From a virus, in the IMG/VR virus record IMGVR_UViG_3300013131_002254, positions 1-26,317 of that record: a stretch of 26,317 nucleotides of DNA; one strand, given 5' to 3'. The translations under genes were made by a program, and so were the position numbers. Positions 16,568 through 26,254 of this stretch are shown here, one piece after another (position 1 is the stretch's first letter; each line of letters starts with the position of its first letter). The notes under the pieces were generated by a model. It saw only the letters and a list, made by a program, of their open reading frames with translations, searched no databases and was not told where the DNA came from.

Positions 16568-16952
16568 CGAAAATACCTTTTGTTCTTTCTATTTGAACAT
16601 CATTAGCTTTGGCATAATCATCAATTGCCTTTGCCAGTTTAAAATCCAGTATTGTCAATCCATTAACATCTGAGGTAGTAGTTTTTACTGTCACCTCAGT
16701 TACATCTTGTTTAATAAGAGCAAAGTGATCTAGTTCTTCGCTTTTATCATTAATGAACTTAATGAAATCTACGGCCAATCTATGATCTTTAGCTATAAAT
16801 TTTGCCTGAAGATATCTGTGATCAAACATCTCCCAACCAGGAACAATGGATGCTCGCATATCATCCAGTTCTTTATTAGGTGGTACTCGTTCTTCAGCGT
16901 CGTTTAATCTAAACTCACCTTCTAAGATATAATTACGAAAATTTATTTTCAT
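16551..16952 (-). CDS. Pterin-4a-carbinolamine dehydratase (DCoH)-like protein
   Basis: 133 aa. Residues 40-112 follow the DCoH fold: FDHRYLQAKFIAKDHRLAVDFIKFINDK (strand then helix), EELDH at the catalytic loop (His76), VTEVTVKTTTSDVNGLTILDFKLAKAID (strand, then the conserved G-L-T-x-D-x-x-L-A helix). The usual active-site HH or HN pair appears as His-Phe, so the second catalytic residue is changed and dehydratase activity is doubtful. PCD-like proteins have been reported from aquatic phages. Here it lies among virion genes (ATGA overlap with the DUF5824-type gene), so a structural reuse of the fold is possible. An N-terminal ~35 aa extension precedes the fold. Confidence 0.68.
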   Translation of the reverse strand: MKINFRNYILEGEFRLNDAEERVPPNKELDDMRASIVPGWEMFDHRYLQAKFIAKDHRLAVDFIKFINDKSEELDHFALIKQDVTEVTVKTTTSDVNGLTILDFKLAKAIDDYAKANDVQIERTKGIFGDEKI

Positions 16953-17950
16953 CTTCTCGCAAGTCTTTTCTTTTCAAGTTCTCGTACTCTTGGCAACATC
17001 TTCACTGCCAGATTAGCTTGTAGAGCTGCCATTCTATTTACTTGCCCTTCAATTTGATCCCTTTCCTGCGCAGATAGTTGAGATTTATCTCTGCCTCTAA
17101 GGAATCTATTCATTAATGCTCTGCGGGCTGCTTTGTGCGCTCTGGTCTGCAGAGTCTTAACATCAGATGCTCTGCGTAATTTTATCATCTTGGCAACATC
17201 TCTACGAGTAGATGTTCTTGCAAATCTCATTCTACGTTGTATTCTGGACATAGCTGAGATTTTTTCATCAATTACCTCCGGATCATTTCCCTCGAATTCT
17301 ACTTCATCATCGTTATAAAGTTCAACGATATCATGCCATTCTAAACTGTTTGCCATATTATCAAGTTGATCTTCTGATATTTCTTCTTTTACAAAAGACT
17401 TGAAGGATAAATTTTCTTCTCTTAAATCTTTATCTGCAGTGTGATAAGTCTTACCTTTCATTATATAAGAATTTACTCTGGCCAGACCCCATTGTGTGGG
17501 AGTTGTACCTGGTCTATGAGATGTTCTCCAGGCTGCTACACCGCGCTTGAATACTTTTCTGAGAGTACCAATTGATACTCCAGACTTATCTGCTTTGTTT
17601 CTGAGTGCAGCTTCGGATGATTCATCTAACATTTCGCCTTCCTTTTCAACTGATTCGTCAGCTTCTCCTGCGCCCTTAGGTGCATGTGCATAAGGCTCAT
17701 CTGCTAAAGTTAAATCCTCATCTTTAGCATTTTTAATCATCTCACCGACATGCCCTTTCATATAAGGTTCATGTTCATCTATCGCATTTAATGCCTTTAG
17801 TGCAGAATGTGCATTGGTATAATGCTGAGTAAAATCATGAATGTGTTGCTCGGTTCCTTCTGTGCGAGATGCCTTCAGAACACCAAGATAATTGTCGGTT
17901 GCCTGAATAGCTGCTCTTAATAATTCGTGATCTACATGTACTTTATTCAT
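16949..17950 (-). CDS. DUF5824-type phage protein with a basic helical C-terminal domain
   Basis: 333 aa. The first ~75 residues are His-rich and helical. The segment ALRNKADKSGVSIGTLRKVFKRG, with AWRTSHRPGTTPTQWGLARVNSYIMKG, is what I recognise as the DUF5824 motif of phage proteins. An acidic linker (EEISEDQLDN to DPEVIDEKIS) leads to a strongly basic helix-rich C-terminus (SRIQRRMRFARTSTRRDVAKMI to ELEKKRLARR), a style found in many T4-like phage proteins. EMLDESSEA before the DUF and VIDEKIS after the acidic stretch fit (I/L)xE cleavage-like motifs. Overlaps Dps by 4 nt (ATGA). Function unknown; likely virion/head related. Confidence 0.72.
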   Translation of the reverse strand: MNKVHVDHELLRAAIQATDNYLGVLKASRTEGTEQHIHDFTQHYTNAHSALKALNAIDEHEPYMKGHVGEMIKNAKDEDLTLADEPYAHAPKGAGEADESVEKEGEMLDESSEAALRNKADKSGVSIGTLRKVFKRGVAAWRTSHRPGTTPTQWGLARVNSYIMKGKTYHTADKDLREENLSFKSFVKEEISEDQLDNMANSLEWHDIVELYNDDEVEFEGNDPEVIDEKISAMSRIQRRMRFARTSTRRDVAKMIKLRRASDVKTLQTRAHKAARRALMNRFLRGRDKSQLSAQERDQIEGQVNRMAALQANLAVKMLPRVRELEKKRLARR

Positions 17951-18378
17951 TTTGCAGTGGCTCTAAGCATCCATCCATGCTTTTGATGTGTTTCAATTCT
18001 ACCCTGAAGAGAATTGGAAATACCAATTTCACCTTGTTCTTCAGCTATTTTATATGCAGTCATCAAGGATATAATAACTAAATTATTATCTGCTTCAAGA
18101 TTTACTGCCATTGTTCTTGCATCGGGTACATCTCCGTCGGGCATAATGCCTGATGCCATAGATGTTGCCCTGTGCCCTGGCGCTTTAACATCAAGTGTTC
18201 TAATTAATTCTGCAATGGTATCGGTTGCGCCCTGGGCATCTTCATAGATATCACCAAACATACCATGTAGGGAATGAAAGTGTAAACCTTCTATATTCCA
18301 ATGATAGTATTGTGCTTTTAAATAAAAATTAAAAGTGTCGCCAAGCGCTCTACTAAGTGCTTCTACTAATGGATTCAT
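17947..18378 (-). CDS. Dps-like ferritin (DNA protection/iron storage)
   Basis: 143 aa, slightly shorter than cellular Dps (~165). The Dps ferroxidase residues are all present with exact spacing: His26 (YYHWNIEG), His38 (FHSLHGMF), Asp53 and Glu57 (ATDTIAELI), the same 12/15/4 intervals as His51, His63, Asp78 and Glu82 of E. coli Dps. The HWN motif and the A-x-x-D-x-I-A-E helix are diagnostic. Dps forms a 12-mer that oxidises ferrous iron with peroxide and protects DNA; the basic N-terminal tail used for DNA binding in E. coli Dps is missing. It lies between two virion-type genes with one-base and ATGA overlaps, so it is late expressed. Confidence 0.92.
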   Translation of the reverse strand: MNPLVEALSRALGDTFNFYLKAQYYHWNIEGLHFHSLHGMFGDIYEDAQGATDTIAELIRTLDVKAPGHRATSMASGIMPDGDVPDARTMAVNLEADNNLVIISLMTAYKIAEEQGEIGISNSLQGRIETHQKHGWMLRATAK

Positions 18379-19799
18379 TATAACTCCGTATACTGTCTAA
18401 ATTGCATATGTCTAACATTCTGAGGTTTCATGGCAATACCCGCATGGACCTTGGCCAGAACTGGTTCGTTGGGTCCAGGGGGTGCCTCATAAGGGCCGAC
18501 TTTACTAATCAATTCTGTAAATTTTTTTCTTGCTTCTGGGCTGGCATCAAAATGTTTTGTCTTGTATCCACCATATTCTATTTGATTATTTGATTCCTGC
18601 AATTCTTGTTTTTGTTCTGGAGACATTAGCAAATATGGAATAATTGTTTCAGTTTTTATTCCATGCCTTTCTTTGTATGCCTTAGTATACACTGATGGCT
18701 TTGTCTTTACACCTTTATCAGTTGACCATTGTTGCATTAAACTTGGATCATCTGGATTAGCTTTTACTTTTTCTTTAGCGCGGTCTTGATTCTTCTTTAC
18801 TTCGTAGGGCGAGGCTACTCCTTTAGGAGCATTTTTCTTATTGACATCTGGATAATTTTTGAAACTTGGTCTTTGTTTTAGTGCACCGGATTTGGTTTTA
18901 TATTTTTCTTCGTTGATATCTGTTATCCAACCTTTGACTGTAGATTTATCTTCTAATTGTAGTGTAACGTAGTTTGAACCTCTGTATACTATCTCGCCTT
19001 CTACACCGTCGTTAGTCTCAACCTTTTCATTTAATTTATAGATGTGTCCCAGCACATATTGTTCTCTTAGATTCATTTCTTCTTTCATACTTAAAGGTTT
19101 ACATTTACCGTCTGTATTGCACCAGTATTCGCCTTCAGGGCATTGTATTTCGCCTTTGGGTGTCATACTTTGCATATACTTTGTTCCACCAGGTGTGCCC
19201 CAGTCGAAACGATAAGGATTTTCATAATCCTCTTTTAAAGATGATCTTACTTTATGGTAGACGTCTTCTTTATCTTTGTCGGATAATCCATGCATCATAC
19301 CTTTCTTAAATTCTTCTTTGTTACCAGCAATAGCATGAGAACGTAGCTTGGATGCAGACATTCCTTCAGCGCCCTCAGCATCTGGATCTCTGTGCCCTGC
19401 TGACACTATCTTAATGGATTTATAACTATAATGTTCTGGTTTATTGTTGTATTTGTGCAGTAGATTATGGTATTCTTCCACTCTATCAGAACCAGCAACT
19501 ACATGTAAATGATGGTAACCTTCACCATGTAGTTTCTTAGCTATGTGTATTATACTTGGAGATTCTTTGCTAGATGATCTGACACTCAGATTACTATGGT
19601 TTTTGTAGGCTTTTTTGATCAAGCCAACCTTTTCTGATGCAGATAAGGGATTCTTTTTAGCATCCTGTGAATGGGATACATAGATGTGAGGAGTACCACC
19701 GACACTTTTTGCGTGTTCAATGGTTTTGTCGAACAATTTTCTATGCCCAATTGTTGGGGGGTTCGCTCTACCCCAGGCTACTACAGCGGTTTTTTCCAT
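18378..19799 (-). CDS. TIGH-type nucleotidyltransferase fused to a virion-type C-terminal region
   Basis: 473 aa. Residues 1-165 form a nucleotidyltransferase domain: GRANPPTIGHRKLF (residues 10-23, HxGH-type as TIGH), KNPLSASEKVGLIKKAY, HLHVVAGSDRVEEYHNLL and EGMSASKLRSHA (ISSTxxR-like). This is the NMNAT/cytidylyltransferase fold; substrate is unknown. A central CPEGEYWCNTDGKCKPL Cys cluster follows, then a beta segment (VEGEIVYRGSNYVTLQLEDKSTVKGWI) common in aquatic phage virion proteins, then a basic tail. It is the first gene after the late promoter at 19829-19836 and overlaps Dps by one base. A weak ribosome site precedes the ATG. Confidence 0.82.
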   Translation of the reverse strand: MEKTAVVAWGRANPPTIGHRKLFDKTIEHAKSVGGTPHIYVSHSQDAKKNPLSASEKVGLIKKAYKNHSNLSVRSSSKESPSIIHIAKKLHGEGYHHLHVVAGSDRVEEYHNLLHKYNNKPEHYSYKSIKIVSAGHRDPDAEGAEGMSASKLRSHAIAGNKEEFKKGMMHGLSDKDKEDVYHKVRSSLKEDYENPYRFDWGTPGGTKYMQSMTPKGEIQCPEGEYWCNTDGKCKPLSMKEEMNLREQYVLGHIYKLNEKVETNDGVEGEIVYRGSNYVTLQLEDKSTVKGWITDINEEKYKTKSGALKQRPSFKNYPDVNKKNAPKGVASPYEVKKNQDRAKEKVKANPDDPSLMQQWSTDKGVKTKPSVYTKAYKERHGIKTETIIPYLLMSPEQKQELQESNNQIEYGGYKTKHFDASPEARKKFTELISKVGPYEAPPGPNEPVLAKVHAGIAMKPQNVRHMQFRQYTEL

Positions 19800-23555: not shown

Positions 23556-23804
23556 TTAGGCGGAGAATGCCTCGCTACCAGACTGCTTATAAGCAGCAGC
23601 TACCATCGCACGACTTGGCTTACCAAGACGATAAGCAGATTTACCATTTTTGGTAGTATTGGTATAAATTGCGTGACCTTCAGAACGAAGTTCACTGATG
23701 CGAGGACGAATGCTATCTTCTGAACTGTTTGTTAATCCTGCAAGTTGAGCAGGAGTGAACTGACGACCAGATTGTAGAACCTTCAATACACGAGTTTTTA
23801 ACAT
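23556..23804 (-). CDS. Winged helix-turn-helix DNA-binding protein
   Basis: 82 aa from the ATG at 23804, chosen because GGAG precedes it by 5 nt and the MLKTRVLKVLQ start is typical of the family; an upstream in-frame start at 23855 would begin at or before the predicted transcript start. Residues 1-55 form a winged helix: MLKTRVLKVLQSGRQFTP, AQLAGLTNSSEDSIRPRISEL as the recognition helix region, and EGHAIYTN with the wing. A basic tail follows. Small proteins of this type are common phage regulators. It sits behind a strong sigma70 promoter (23858-23886), so early expression and a regulatory role are likely. Its target is unknown. Confidence 0.82.
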   Translation of the reverse strand: MLKTRVLKVLQSGRQFTPAQLAGLTNSSEDSIRPRISELRSEGHAIYTNTTKNGKSAYRLGKPSRAMVAAAYKQSGSEAFSA

Positions 23805-23857
23805 AATTACTCCATTTATATCATTGCAACTAAGGTGTGCAATACGACCATACACTT

Positions 23858-23886
23858 ATTATATAATAAAAAGATACCAAGGTCAA
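23858..23886 (-). promoter_or_regulatory. Strong sigma70 promoter for the winged-helix gene
   Basis: Minus-strand TTGACC (23886-23881), 17-nt spacer, TATAAT (23863-23858): 11 of 12 consensus bases with optimal spacing. The start would be near 23851, giving a ~47-nt leader that includes the GGAG ribosome site of the gene at 23804. Confidence 0.85.
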
Positions 23887-24044
23887 TCTGAAGTTAACCA
23901 AAAGTTGGCAAAATCTTCAGCTTCTTTTTTAGAATCAAAGTAGTATTCTTTTTCTGTTTCAAAATAATGATCAAGTAATACTACTCTATATCCTTTACCC
24001 CGTTCTTTTATTATTGCGGTTTTTAAATTTTCGGTCAGGACCAT
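23883..24044 (-). CDS. 53-aa protein overlapping the omega gene
   Basis: ATG at 24044 to TGA at 23883 gives 53 residues (MVLTENLKTAIIKERGKGYRVV at the start, ending with FDSKKEAEDFANFWLTSD). It overlaps the last 50 nt of the omega gene in another frame and has AAGAG directly before its ATG. The composition (strand-like YRVVLLDHYFETEKEYYF then helix) fits a small folded protein and not a shadow. No family recognised. It ends inside the -35 box of the next promoter. Moderately confident as a real gene; function unknown. Confidence 0.6.
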   Translation of the reverse strand: MVLTENLKTAIIKERGKGYRVVLLDHYFETEKEYYFDSKKEAEDFANFWLTSD

Positions 24045-24243
24045 CTCTTAACTTTCTTAAATATTCTTTTCCAATTAACCCTAGTTCAATTTCTCGTATA
24101 GCAGTAACTATGGGTTTATTTTTTGTTGCCATCTTCGGGGCATCACCTCTGCGTAATTCCCTCGCCCTTGCTGCAGCTATTAATACCATATCATACTTAT
24201 TACCAATTTTAATAGATGCTAATTCAGAAGTTATTCTAGCCAT
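23995..24243 (-). CDS. RNA polymerase omega subunit homologue (RpoZ-like)
   Basis: 82 aa. It follows bacterial omega closely: MARITSELASIKIGNKYDMVLIAAARARELRRG matches the MARxTxxDA-xKIGNRFDLVLxAARRAR signature, and APKMATKNKPIVTAIREIELGLIG matches the conserved NKPxVxALREIExGxI segment. A basic tail (RKFKNRNNKRTG) ends it. Cellular omega binds the beta-prime subunit and aids RNA polymerase assembly. A phage copy could enter the host enzyme and alter its promoter choice or stability; this is inference. It lies third in a unit beginning with the perfect sigma70 promoter, after tRNAs and the RNase H-like gene, with which it overlaps by 8 nt. Confidence 0.85.
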   Translation of the reverse strand: MARITSELASIKIGNKYDMVLIAAARARELRRGDAPKMATKNKPIVTAIREIELGLIGKEYLRKLRDGPDRKFKNRNNKRTG

Positions 24244-24709
24244 TATTTATTCTCAATTCCTTTAATCTATCTGCTGCGTAACTAGCAGCGAATGAGAGAG
24301 GTTTTACTAAAGGGATTACATTACAAGTACCTTTAATATAACCTACTGCCTGAGACAGAACAACATTACTTACATGATCATCGTTTGGATTGATATCCAA
24401 ATGCACCTCTACCTCTCTGTCTATAAATACCTCAGCAAGTTTTATGTATAGATCCGCGATCTTGTATACTTCATTCATTAATCTAAATGTAGGTTTAGAT
24501 GCTTTTTGATCATAATCTTTTTCTGTAATTATCTCACCGAAGATTTTACAACCATGTTTTCCATCTATATGAACCACTATGGCAAGAATATAATCAGCGT
24601 ACCATACATTGTTTCTGCGATATCTTTCAGAATCGCAACCAATATAAATTTTAGTCTCTGGACCTTGTTTATCTATAAATTCTTTTACTTGTTCTAGATT
24701 TAGTTTCAT
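24236..24709 (-). CDS. RNase H-like protein (DUF458/YkuK-type)
   Basis: 157 aa from the ATG at 24709, preferred over a GTG at 24718 because AAGGTG lies 6-11 nt before it. The N-terminus KIYIGCDSERY carries the first acidic residue of the RNase H-like fold, as in YkuK/DUF458 proteins (YIGxDSQ). Further conserved-looking acids lie in FRLMNEVYKIADLY, VHLDINPNDDH and SYAADRLKEL, with VVHIDGKHGCKIFGEII as strands. These proteins are predicted nucleases or nucleic-acid-binding; activity is not proven. The gene begins 16 nt after the encoded CCA of tRNA-Met, so it shares a transcript with two tRNAs. Confidence 0.72.
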   Translation of the reverse strand: MKLNLEQVKEFIDKQGPETKIYIGCDSERYRRNNVWYADYILAIVVHIDGKHGCKIFGEIITEKDYDQKASKPTFRLMNEVYKIADLYIKLAEVFIDREVEVHLDINPNDDHVSNVVLSQAVGYIKGTCNVIPLVKPLSFAASYAADRLKELRINNG

Positions 24710-24725
24710 TTTACACACCTTAAAA

Positions 24726-24803
24726 TGGTGCCCCCTCCAGGGGTTGCACCTGGCACCAACGGTTTATGAGACCGCGGCTCTACTAACCATGAGCTAAGGG
24801 GGC
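24726..24803 (-). tRNA. tRNA-Met (anticodon CAU)
   Basis: Minus strand, 78 nt with encoded CCA. Acceptor GCCCCCT/AGGGGGC with A discriminator, D stem GCTC/GAGC, anticodon stem GCGGT/ACCGT around CTCATAA (anticodon CAT), T stem CCAGG/CCTGG around TGCAACC. All stems pair. CAU could be elongator Met or an Ile tRNA modified at C34; the first pair G-C suggests it is not initiator. It follows tRNA-Leu by 5 nt. Confidence 0.93.
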
Positions 24804-24808
24804 AATAC

Positions 24809-24896
24809 TGGTACCCAGGGCGGGATTCGAACCCGCAGTGTTTCTAATGTGCAAGATTTTAAGTCTTGTGCGTTTCACCTATTTCGCCACCTGGGC
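24809..24896 (-). tRNA. tRNA-Leu (anticodon UAA)
   Basis: Minus strand, 88 nt with encoded CCA. Acceptor GCCCAGG/CCTGGGT, D stem GCG/CGC, anticodon stem CAAGA/TCTTG around CTTAAAA (anticodon TAA), long class II variable arm (~16 nt) and T stem GCGGG/CCCGC with TTCGAAT. The 5' end lies about at the expected start site of the promoter at 24905-24933, so the transcript may begin with the tRNA itself. Confidence 0.93.
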
Positions 24897-24904
24897 GTTA
24901 AATT

Positions 24905-24933
24905 ATTATAATGTATTTAGATAAGCATGTCAA
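24905..24933 (-). promoter_or_regulatory. Perfect-consensus sigma70 promoter for the tRNA-omega unit
   Basis: Minus-strand TTGACA (24933-24928), 17-nt spacer, TATAAT (24910-24905): 12 of 12 consensus bases and ideal spacing. The start is expected near 24898, two bases before the tRNA-Leu 5' end. The downstream unit would be tRNA-Leu, tRNA-Met, RNase H-like, omega and the 53-aa ORF. Confidence 0.9.
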
Positions 24934-24940
24934 ATGCTTA
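24922..24940. promoter_or_regulatory. Inverted repeat (dyad) covering the -35 box: operator candidate
   Basis: TAAGCAT, 5-nt GTCAA, ATGCTTA: perfect 7-bp arms whose centre is the TTGAC of the -35 element on the minus strand. The dyad also overlaps the stop codon of the adhesin gene. It could be a repressor or activator site for the promoter, or the 3' stem of the upstream transcript; no U-run follows in the minus direction. Confidence 0.6.
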
Positions 24941-25969
24941 GTTGATCAAAGTTACTATTACGTAACCATTTCCGTTGTTGGTACCGGTAACATTACTTAC
25001 GTAACCAGACAGAGTATAGGAACCACCACCACCACCATATTGTCCATCGCTTGCACCACCGTTGCCTCCTCCACCTCCACCGCTATATCCGCCACCGCCA
25101 CCTGCCCAAACGTAAGTATTAGTCGCATTGTTATCACCGTTACCTGCGCCACCGCCTCCACCGAATCCACCTCTAATAGCATGCATGGATCTAACGTTTG
25201 CTGCTACATTGCCACCTATCCAATTATTTGCTTTACTTCTTCCTTGAAGACCGTTTGCTGATTGACCATCAGATAAAATACCAGCACCAGGTCCGCCATA
25301 TAAAATACCCCTGGTACTTACGTTACCGCCTCTTCCATTTCTACCACCATAGGAAAAAGCTCCGCCTTGTATTGATACATTTGTGCCATGTATCGTATTA
25401 CCTTTACCATGGGCAGTCAATTGATTAGTCAGTAATGCTGTTCTAGTCGATGCTGCTCCTCCGCCTCCCCCGCCTACAACATAGAAAGTAGAAGTAGTGT
25501 TATCATAAACAAATGAACCTCCTCCGCCAGCACCGCCCGGAAATAACGGACCATTAACATTGCTTCTGTCTTGTCCCTCTTGTCCAACAACTATGGCAAT
25601 TTTATCATTTTGAGTAAGAGCTATTTCAGCAACAATTTGTGCCCCGAATCCGCCCTCTAAATTTGCTGAATGGCTTTTACCACCTCTGGCTCCTACCGCA
25701 GTAATTCTATAAGTACCAGACTTAGGCACAGTCCAAAGTTGTATACCTTGAACTGGGACATTAAAATAATCAGTATTATTTAACCAAGAATTATCTACAG
25801 TATTGTAGTTTGCTAAACATTGAGAAAGAGTAGGACCAGCTCTACCCGCAACATTTGCTGCGGTAAATGTGAATGTAGAAAAAGAATATAAGTCAGAATT
25901 TATTACAACAAGTTCGGTGCCAAGATTACTTCCTGATATGTTTAATCCAGAAATATTTAAATTTGGCAT
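24938..25969 (-). CDS. Gly-rich adhesin-like protein (host recognition candidate)
   Basis: 343 aa. The first ~90 residues are beta-rich (NISGLNISGSNLGTELVVINSD, then FSTFTFTAANVAGRAGPTLSQC). From GTYRITAVGARGG onward the protein is a glycine-rich domain with long Gly runs (PGGAGGGGSFVYD, VVGGGGGGAAS, GGFGGGGGAGNGDN, WAGGGGGYSGGGGGGNGG). This resembles the Gly-rich domains of phage adhesins (T2 gp38-like polyglycine helices) and of ALK-type Gly-rich domains. Such proteins sit at fibre tips and bind the host receptor; here that is inferred. Loops between Gly runs are the variable part. It ends at the dyad of the tRNA-omega promoter. The preceding gene is the Lys-rich 57-aa ORF. Confidence 0.82.
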   Translation of the reverse strand: MPNLNISGLNISGSNLGTELVVINSDLYSFSTFTFTAANVAGRAGPTLSQCLANYNTVDNSWLNNTDYFNVPVQGIQLWTVPKSGTYRITAVGARGGKSHSANLEGGFGAQIVAEIALTQNDKIAIVVGQEGQDRSNVNGPLFPGGAGGGGSFVYDNTTSTFYVVGGGGGGAASTRTALLTNQLTAHGKGNTIHGTNVSIQGGAFSYGGRNGRGGNVSTRGILYGGPGAGILSDGQSANGLQGRSKANNWIGGNVAANVRSMHAIRGGFGGGGGAGNGDNNATNTYVWAGGGGGYSGGGGGGNGGASDGQYGGGGGSYTLSGYVSNVTGTNNGNGYVIVTLIN

Positions 25970-26176: not shown

Positions 26177-26254
26177 TGGTGCCCAGAGAGGGATTCGAAC
26201 CCACACTGTACGGCTTCTAAGGCCGGTGCCTCCTACCAATTGCGCTATCTGGGC
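26177..26254 (-). tRNA. tRNA-Leu(UAG)-like, short variable loop
   Basis: Minus strand, 78 nt with encoded CCA. Acceptor GCCCAGA/TCTGGGC pairs perfectly with discriminator A. The anticodon loop CTTAGAA gives UAG, a Leu anticodon, and the flanking GGCAC and CTTNNAA are Leu-like. The variable region is only about 5-6 nt, not the usual long class II arm; the D stem is poor, and the T stem GTGGG/CCCTC has one T-T mismatch. It is probably derived from a Leu tRNA that lost its variable arm; function is uncertain. Confidence 0.75.

Follow-up and report, generated by a model that had tools for sequence, protein, structure and literature searches.

Why should a virus carry a gene for a core subunit of bacterial RNA polymerase, and which polymerase would the product join? 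These questions are raised by an IMG/VR virus record of 26,317 bases, analysed here in its entirety (the window), in which an 82-residue product had been read in an earlier note as the omega subunit (RpoZ). Phages are known to supplement the host RNA polymerase with factors, to alter this enzyme or to supply one of their own; bringing a core-subunit homologue is not among the strategies that we found described in the open-access literature, and no published description of a phage omega was found there either (subscription journals and preprints lay outside this scope). Omega assists the folding of beta-prime and its entry into the core enzyme, and it is dispensable in E. coli (PMC5811629), so that the gain for a phage is not obvious.

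Identity of the omega gene

The open reading frame, which lies on the minus strand at the position given by the earlier note (Table 1), encodes a full omega (RpoZ) homologue, and the homology is firm. Its product exceeded the cut-offs of both Pfam RNA_pol_Rpb6 (PF01192; E = 1.2e-14, 54.5 bits against a cut-off of 26) and the NCBIfam rpoZ equivalog TIGR00690 (E = 3e-11, 43.2 bits against 23.6), and all 56 aligned viral relatives likewise matched Rpb6, so that the profile search proposed in the note bears out its assignment. Two other NCBIfam omega models scored far under their cut-offs and a PHROGs search found no family for the window protein. The top PDB sequence matches were the omega subunits of Vibrio (E = 1e-11) and E. 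coli (E = 3e-10), aligned over residues 1-63. An AlphaFold monomer model built with the 56 viral relatives (pLDDT 83.4) predicted an omega fold, and the matches listed by a Foldseek search with this model were bacterial RNA polymerase omega chains (target-normalised TM-scores of ~0.5-0.84). Residues ~1-62 make up the core fold, in which R26, A48, R50, E51 and I52 of the conserved omega-family core are all present, and residues 67-82 form a basic, non-conserved tail. The N-terminal sequence reads MARITSELASIKIGNKYDMVLIAAARARELRRG, with the MARIT N-terminus fixed by an in-frame stop two codons 5' of the ATG.

Table 1. Features surrounding the omega gene in the window
Feature	Position	Strand	Basis or remark
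Winged-helix/HTH protein (weak HTH_11; phrog_4973)	23556..23855	-	Profile match
Second sigma70-type promoter, TTGACC-17-TATAAT, 11/12, between omega and winged-helix gene	23858..23886	-	Promoter scan
53-aa ORF over the omega 3' end	23883..24044	-	ORF list, locus comparison
Omega (RpoZ homologue), 82 aa	23995..24243	-	Profile, PDB sequence and fold matches
MARIT N-terminus of omega; residues 2-5 equivalent to those of omega in E. coli ppGpp site 1	24229..24243	-	Sequence and PMC7676912
RNase H-like protein (PF04308 / phrog_11311)	24236..24718	-	Profile match
tRNA-Met (cat)	24726..24803	-	tRNA search
tRNA-Leu (taa), first gene past the promoter	24809..24896	-	tRNA search
Sigma70-type promoter, TTGACA-17-TATAAT, 12/12	24905..24933	-	Promoter scan; placed to drive the tRNA-RNaseH-omega unit
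tRNA-Leu (tag), farther upstream within the tRNA region	26177..26254	-	tRNA search

Gene order and promoters in the window

The perfect sigma70 promoter behind which the earlier note had set omega is present, but omega comes fourth among the genes that follow, some 660 nt downstream. The first of the four, tRNA-Leu, begins ~8 nt past the promoter and is followed by tRNA-Met, the RNase H-like gene and omega, the last two sharing an 8-nt overlap suggestive of translational coupling. Among the omega loci described below, the RNase H-like gene was found in 17, lying directly or closely upstream of omega in the window's own clade, and the 53-aa ORF was kept in six loci of that clade, the window counted.

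The winged-helix gene does lie downstream of omega, as had been noted, but it has a promoter of its own and follows omega in only 13 of 81 loci, all within the window's clade. It is therefore a feature of a single lineage and not of the omega family as a whole, and was rejected as an obligate omega partner. The late boxes that the note had reported fared less well: TATAAATA occurs six times in the window against 3.8 expected, a count reached in 15 of 100 shuffles, so that late boxes are unsupported by count and a link of omega to late promoters was rejected on this basis.

Distribution and origin of the viral omega family

A scan of IMG/VR with the window omega alone returned 13 relatives, and a scan with an alignment of these returned at least 113 contigs encoding relatives, of up to 354 kb, from many independent metagenomes; 80 of the 113 were kept for analysis. 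A single omega was encoded by each of 24 large contigs. Across 84,980 bacterial and archaeal genomes, nearly identical motifs gave one match, to an ordinary-looking cellular omega, and the viral form was thus unseen in cellular genomes. A tblastn search of 50,697 phage records, with only some of the matches inspected individually, yielded no convincing omega in an isolated phage. Among the matches inspected, that from Acinetobacter lay between gmk and spoT, marking it as the chromosomal gmk-rpoZ-spoT region, and the Campylobacter phage A11a record encodes the E. coli omega; others came from an unannotated Enterococcus phage record and from MT839270, an unannotated 4.4-kb faecal contig. Matches to plasmid records included chromosome-sized records and rpoZ adjoining gmk and spoT.

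Cellular-type rpoZ in five phage records is apparently host contamination: MG065691 (L126) carries an E. coli protein, CAKLQH020000003 (L089) an Acinetobacter gmk-rpoZ-spoT region, and MG065686, OR845831 and OR851528 were so called from identical match scores only.

In a phylogenetic tree restricted to 66 columns and a limited cellular sample, 64 distinct phage omegas were separated from 21 cellular omegas by one branch (support 99/98). By path, the nearest cellular omega was that of Neisseria, followed by those of Aeromonas, E. coli, Legionella and Proteus. Collection of the phage omegas with phage-derived motifs, alongside few cellular omegas, favours monophyly; on these sequences, a single origin from a beta- or gammaproteobacterial omega would be the simplest reading. 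The phage omegas are under strong purifying selection, with dN/dS of 0.014-0.215 over the 19 pairs for which dS was computable.

Given that public phage sets do contain comparable contamination, the viral omegas might be misbinned host DNA, or a host gene recently acquired and functionless. However, in place of gmk and spoT they have tRNA arrays and phage genes on either side, they come from many independent metagenomes, and their own clade and the selection acting on them are as described above. Host contamination or misbinning was rejected on the strength of clade, phage neighbours and selection, and we consider any explanation of this kind extremely improbable.

Phage and cellular omegas have R26, A48, R50, E51 and I52 in common, whereas S6, E29, T47, E53, Y61 and L62 are near-invariant among the phage proteins but not in the cellular sample.

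Omega genes within tRNA arrays

Of the 81 omega loci, 79 contained tRNA or tmRNA genes by ARAGORN (median 11, maximum 46), the nearest lying within 1 kb of omega in 67 loci, and all 1158 of these genes share the strand of omega. The capsid-gene surroundings of such phages, examined in four loci of ~4 kb, contained no tRNA genes. Protein neighbours vary by lineage, with none nearly as constant as omega. The recurrence of omega in this position suggests that such arrays hold gene-expression parts beyond tRNAs. Among 50 non-redundant lineages, 12 have a strict sigma70 promoter that starts 42-62 nt 5' of the omega ATG, where the promoter rate in the same omega loci would predict 0.6, and from these promoters we infer transcription by the host sigma70 polymerase and hence early expression.

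Very large arrays of 35-46 tRNAs in ~11-16 kb, with omega inside or beside them, were observed in L008 (622-8312), L020, L021, L042 and L023. Permuted-type tmRNA genes were called by ARAGORN near omega in L031 (8606-8944), L037 (8437-8831), L038 (11302-11687), L069 (two), L070, L072 and L081.

This setting bears on the proposal that the phage omega is functionally equal to that of the host and, like the adjacent tRNAs and tmRNA, simply refills a pool after host mRNA and DNA are destroyed. Placement within long tRNA arrays, several of which also contain tmRNA genes, and the variability of the remaining neighbours are in keeping with pure replenishment, whereas the six phage-invariant residues argue for a distinct conserved contact, unless they too are accounted for by ancestry in one proteobacterial omega. 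We regard pure replenishment as a substantial possibility that falls somewhat short of an even chance.

Carrier phages and the polymerase partner

A phage gene with host-type promoters, as in the earlier note's account, is borne out by the promoter scan, and a T4-related carrier is suggested by the primase matches and by Gp23 and gp55 in relatives. T4-type nucleotide and replication genes in the window encode NrdA, NrdB, a thioredoxin-like protein, dCMP deaminase, thymidylate synthase, a MazG-like protein and a primase, the best isolate matches of the last being T4-like cyanophages at ~41-45% identity. The capsid and gp55 hallmarks lie outside the window: Gp23 was found in 10 and a gp55-type late sigma in 12 of the 24 large omega contigs, which may be incomplete, and some relatives have no Gp23 or gp55. 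Terminase and sheath profiles matched few contigs, presumably owing to profile distance or to contig incompleteness, and these searches were given no weight in either direction.

The beta-prime core domain (PF00623) was detected in none of the 24 large contigs and in all 14 control genomes, a search that a divergent phage beta-prime could escape, and a phage-borne polymerase was rejected as the omega partner on this result. Together with the gp55-type sigma in half of the contigs, it points to host RNA polymerase as the likely partner, and the proteobacterial affinity of the closest cellular omegas makes host beta-prime plausible in this role. Judging from these sequence comparisons, we think it probable that the phage omega joins the host polymerase, as a replacement or as a replenishment. 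Under this model, the host sigma70 polymerase would transcribe omega, presumably early, with or next to the phage tRNA genes; the product would fold as cellular omega does and bind host beta-prime instead of, or alongside, host omega, and, once host expression had been shut off by the phage, would preserve the assembly and stability of the host core polymerase. The enzyme would thereby gain a phage-defined omega surface, including the omega half of ppGpp site 1, and its ppGpp response or promoter choice may be affected. Replenishment, a changed ppGpp site and altered promoter choice are narrower versions of this main reading and are mutually compatible.

In bacterial polymerase structures, omega is located away from sigma and promoter DNA. 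This, with the chance-level count of late boxes in the window, speaks against the version in which the phage omega alters promoter choice together with the gp55-type late sigma or another phage factor. The occurrence of that sigma in 12 of the 24 large contigs would suit such a role, as would the winged-helix gene after omega in the window's clade, although the latter is confined to 13 of 81 loci. Altered promoter choice accordingly strikes us as improbable.

The ppGpp site and the alarmone response

In E. coli, omega residues 2-5 coordinate the phosphates of ppGpp as part of site 1 (PMC7676912), and MAR is the conserved N-terminal ppGpp-binding motif of RpoZ (PMC6416229). Among distinct phage omegas, 84% retain A2, 93% R3 and 94% T/S5, whereas at position 6, next to this segment, 98% have S and the cellular sample has V or I. 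Phage omega combined with host beta-prime might serve chiefly to rewire site 1 in the infected, often starved cell, so that the polymerase stops responding to ppGpp in the way that suits the host, or responds in the phage's favour. Retention of the coordinating residues in most phage omegas is consistent with alarmone control of this kind, as is the gene for a SpoT/Mesh1-like hydrolase that lies downstream of omega, at 2.3-4.0 kb in 6 of 81 loci and at 7.4 kb in a seventh. Against it, the hydrolase occurs in related loci only, with most contigs and the window lacking it, and the N-terminal motif may be conserved through descent alone. Moreover, the omegas of L048, L055-L062, L064 and L066 begin MPRQT or MPRQC rather than MARIT, a natural change in the site 1 segment, and a few others have no N-terminal motif at all, yet the rest of omega is kept in each case. 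Genes for DksA/TraR were found in none of the 24 large contigs, which also led us to reject this protein as a partner of the phage omega. Taken together, we hold alarmone control to be a tentative reading, with perhaps one chance in four of being correct.

The putative small alarmone hydrolase was located at 10795-11331 in L042 and 10503-11093 in L008, with further copies in L041, L044, L051, L021 and L047 (the locus at 7.4 kb). It has HD and ED motifs and matches the N-terminal region of SpoT/RelA and the solved Lmo0812/MESH1 structures. For alarmone control it is a lead within its own lineage only.

A stronger form of the idea, about which we are slightly more doubtful still, is that a widespread group of uncultured large phages swaps the host omega for a viral one, takes over its half of ppGpp site 1 and so uncouples transcription in infected cells from the stringent response, with the phage hydrolase acting jointly in some lineages. 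If true, a virus without a polymerase of its own would be exchanging a core subunit of the bacterial enzyme.

Comparison with known systems

The viral proteins share with bacterial RpoZ (TIGR00690, PF01192) their length, fold, conserved core and N-terminal MAR, and pass the family cut-offs. They differ in S6, E29, T47, E53, an [ED]-Y-L segment and a clade of their own; in a tail that is short and often basic, where those of several proteobacterial omegas are long and acidic; and in a setting among tRNA and phage genes rather than in the gmk-rpoZ-spoT neighbourhood. Like gp55, gp33, AsiA, MotA and Alc of T4, they are small phage proteins that would act on the host core polymerase, in apparently T4-related genomes, but omega is a core subunit homologue and not a sigma factor, co-activator or anti-sigma, and is not known in T4 itself. 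Rpb6, which belongs to the omega/Rpb6 family, is encoded by large eukaryotic DNA viruses together with a full polymerase, whereas the omega phages appear to depend on that of the host. The jumbo phages phiKZ and AR9 also have genes for cellular-type polymerase parts, and jumbo-phage multisubunit polymerases comprise beta/beta-prime-like subunits while lacking the alpha assembly subunits (PMC7598289). The omega phages, in contrast, have an assembly subunit, with beta-prime undetected in the 24 large contigs (the window itself being too short).

A family of this size, with a clade to itself and subject to selection, must be presumed to do something, and the evidence suggests that large phages with a viral omega rebuild or retune the host polymerase during infection. 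Because omega is dispensable in E. coli, its purpose is an open question that phage omegas allow to be tested directly, and the same goes for whether phages target the ppGpp response at the level of the polymerase.

Other genes in the window

Further genes were observed in the window. A phosphate-transporter subunit (phrog_5385) is encoded at 373-1383, and nucleotidyl/cytidylyltransferase-like genes at 2309-2797, 16949-17950 and 18378-19799, one of which resembles heptose-phosphate adenylyltransferase. A 343-aa protein rich in glycine, with a weak ALK/LTK glycine-rich domain and a match to phrog_22713, is encoded between tRNA genes at 24938-25969.
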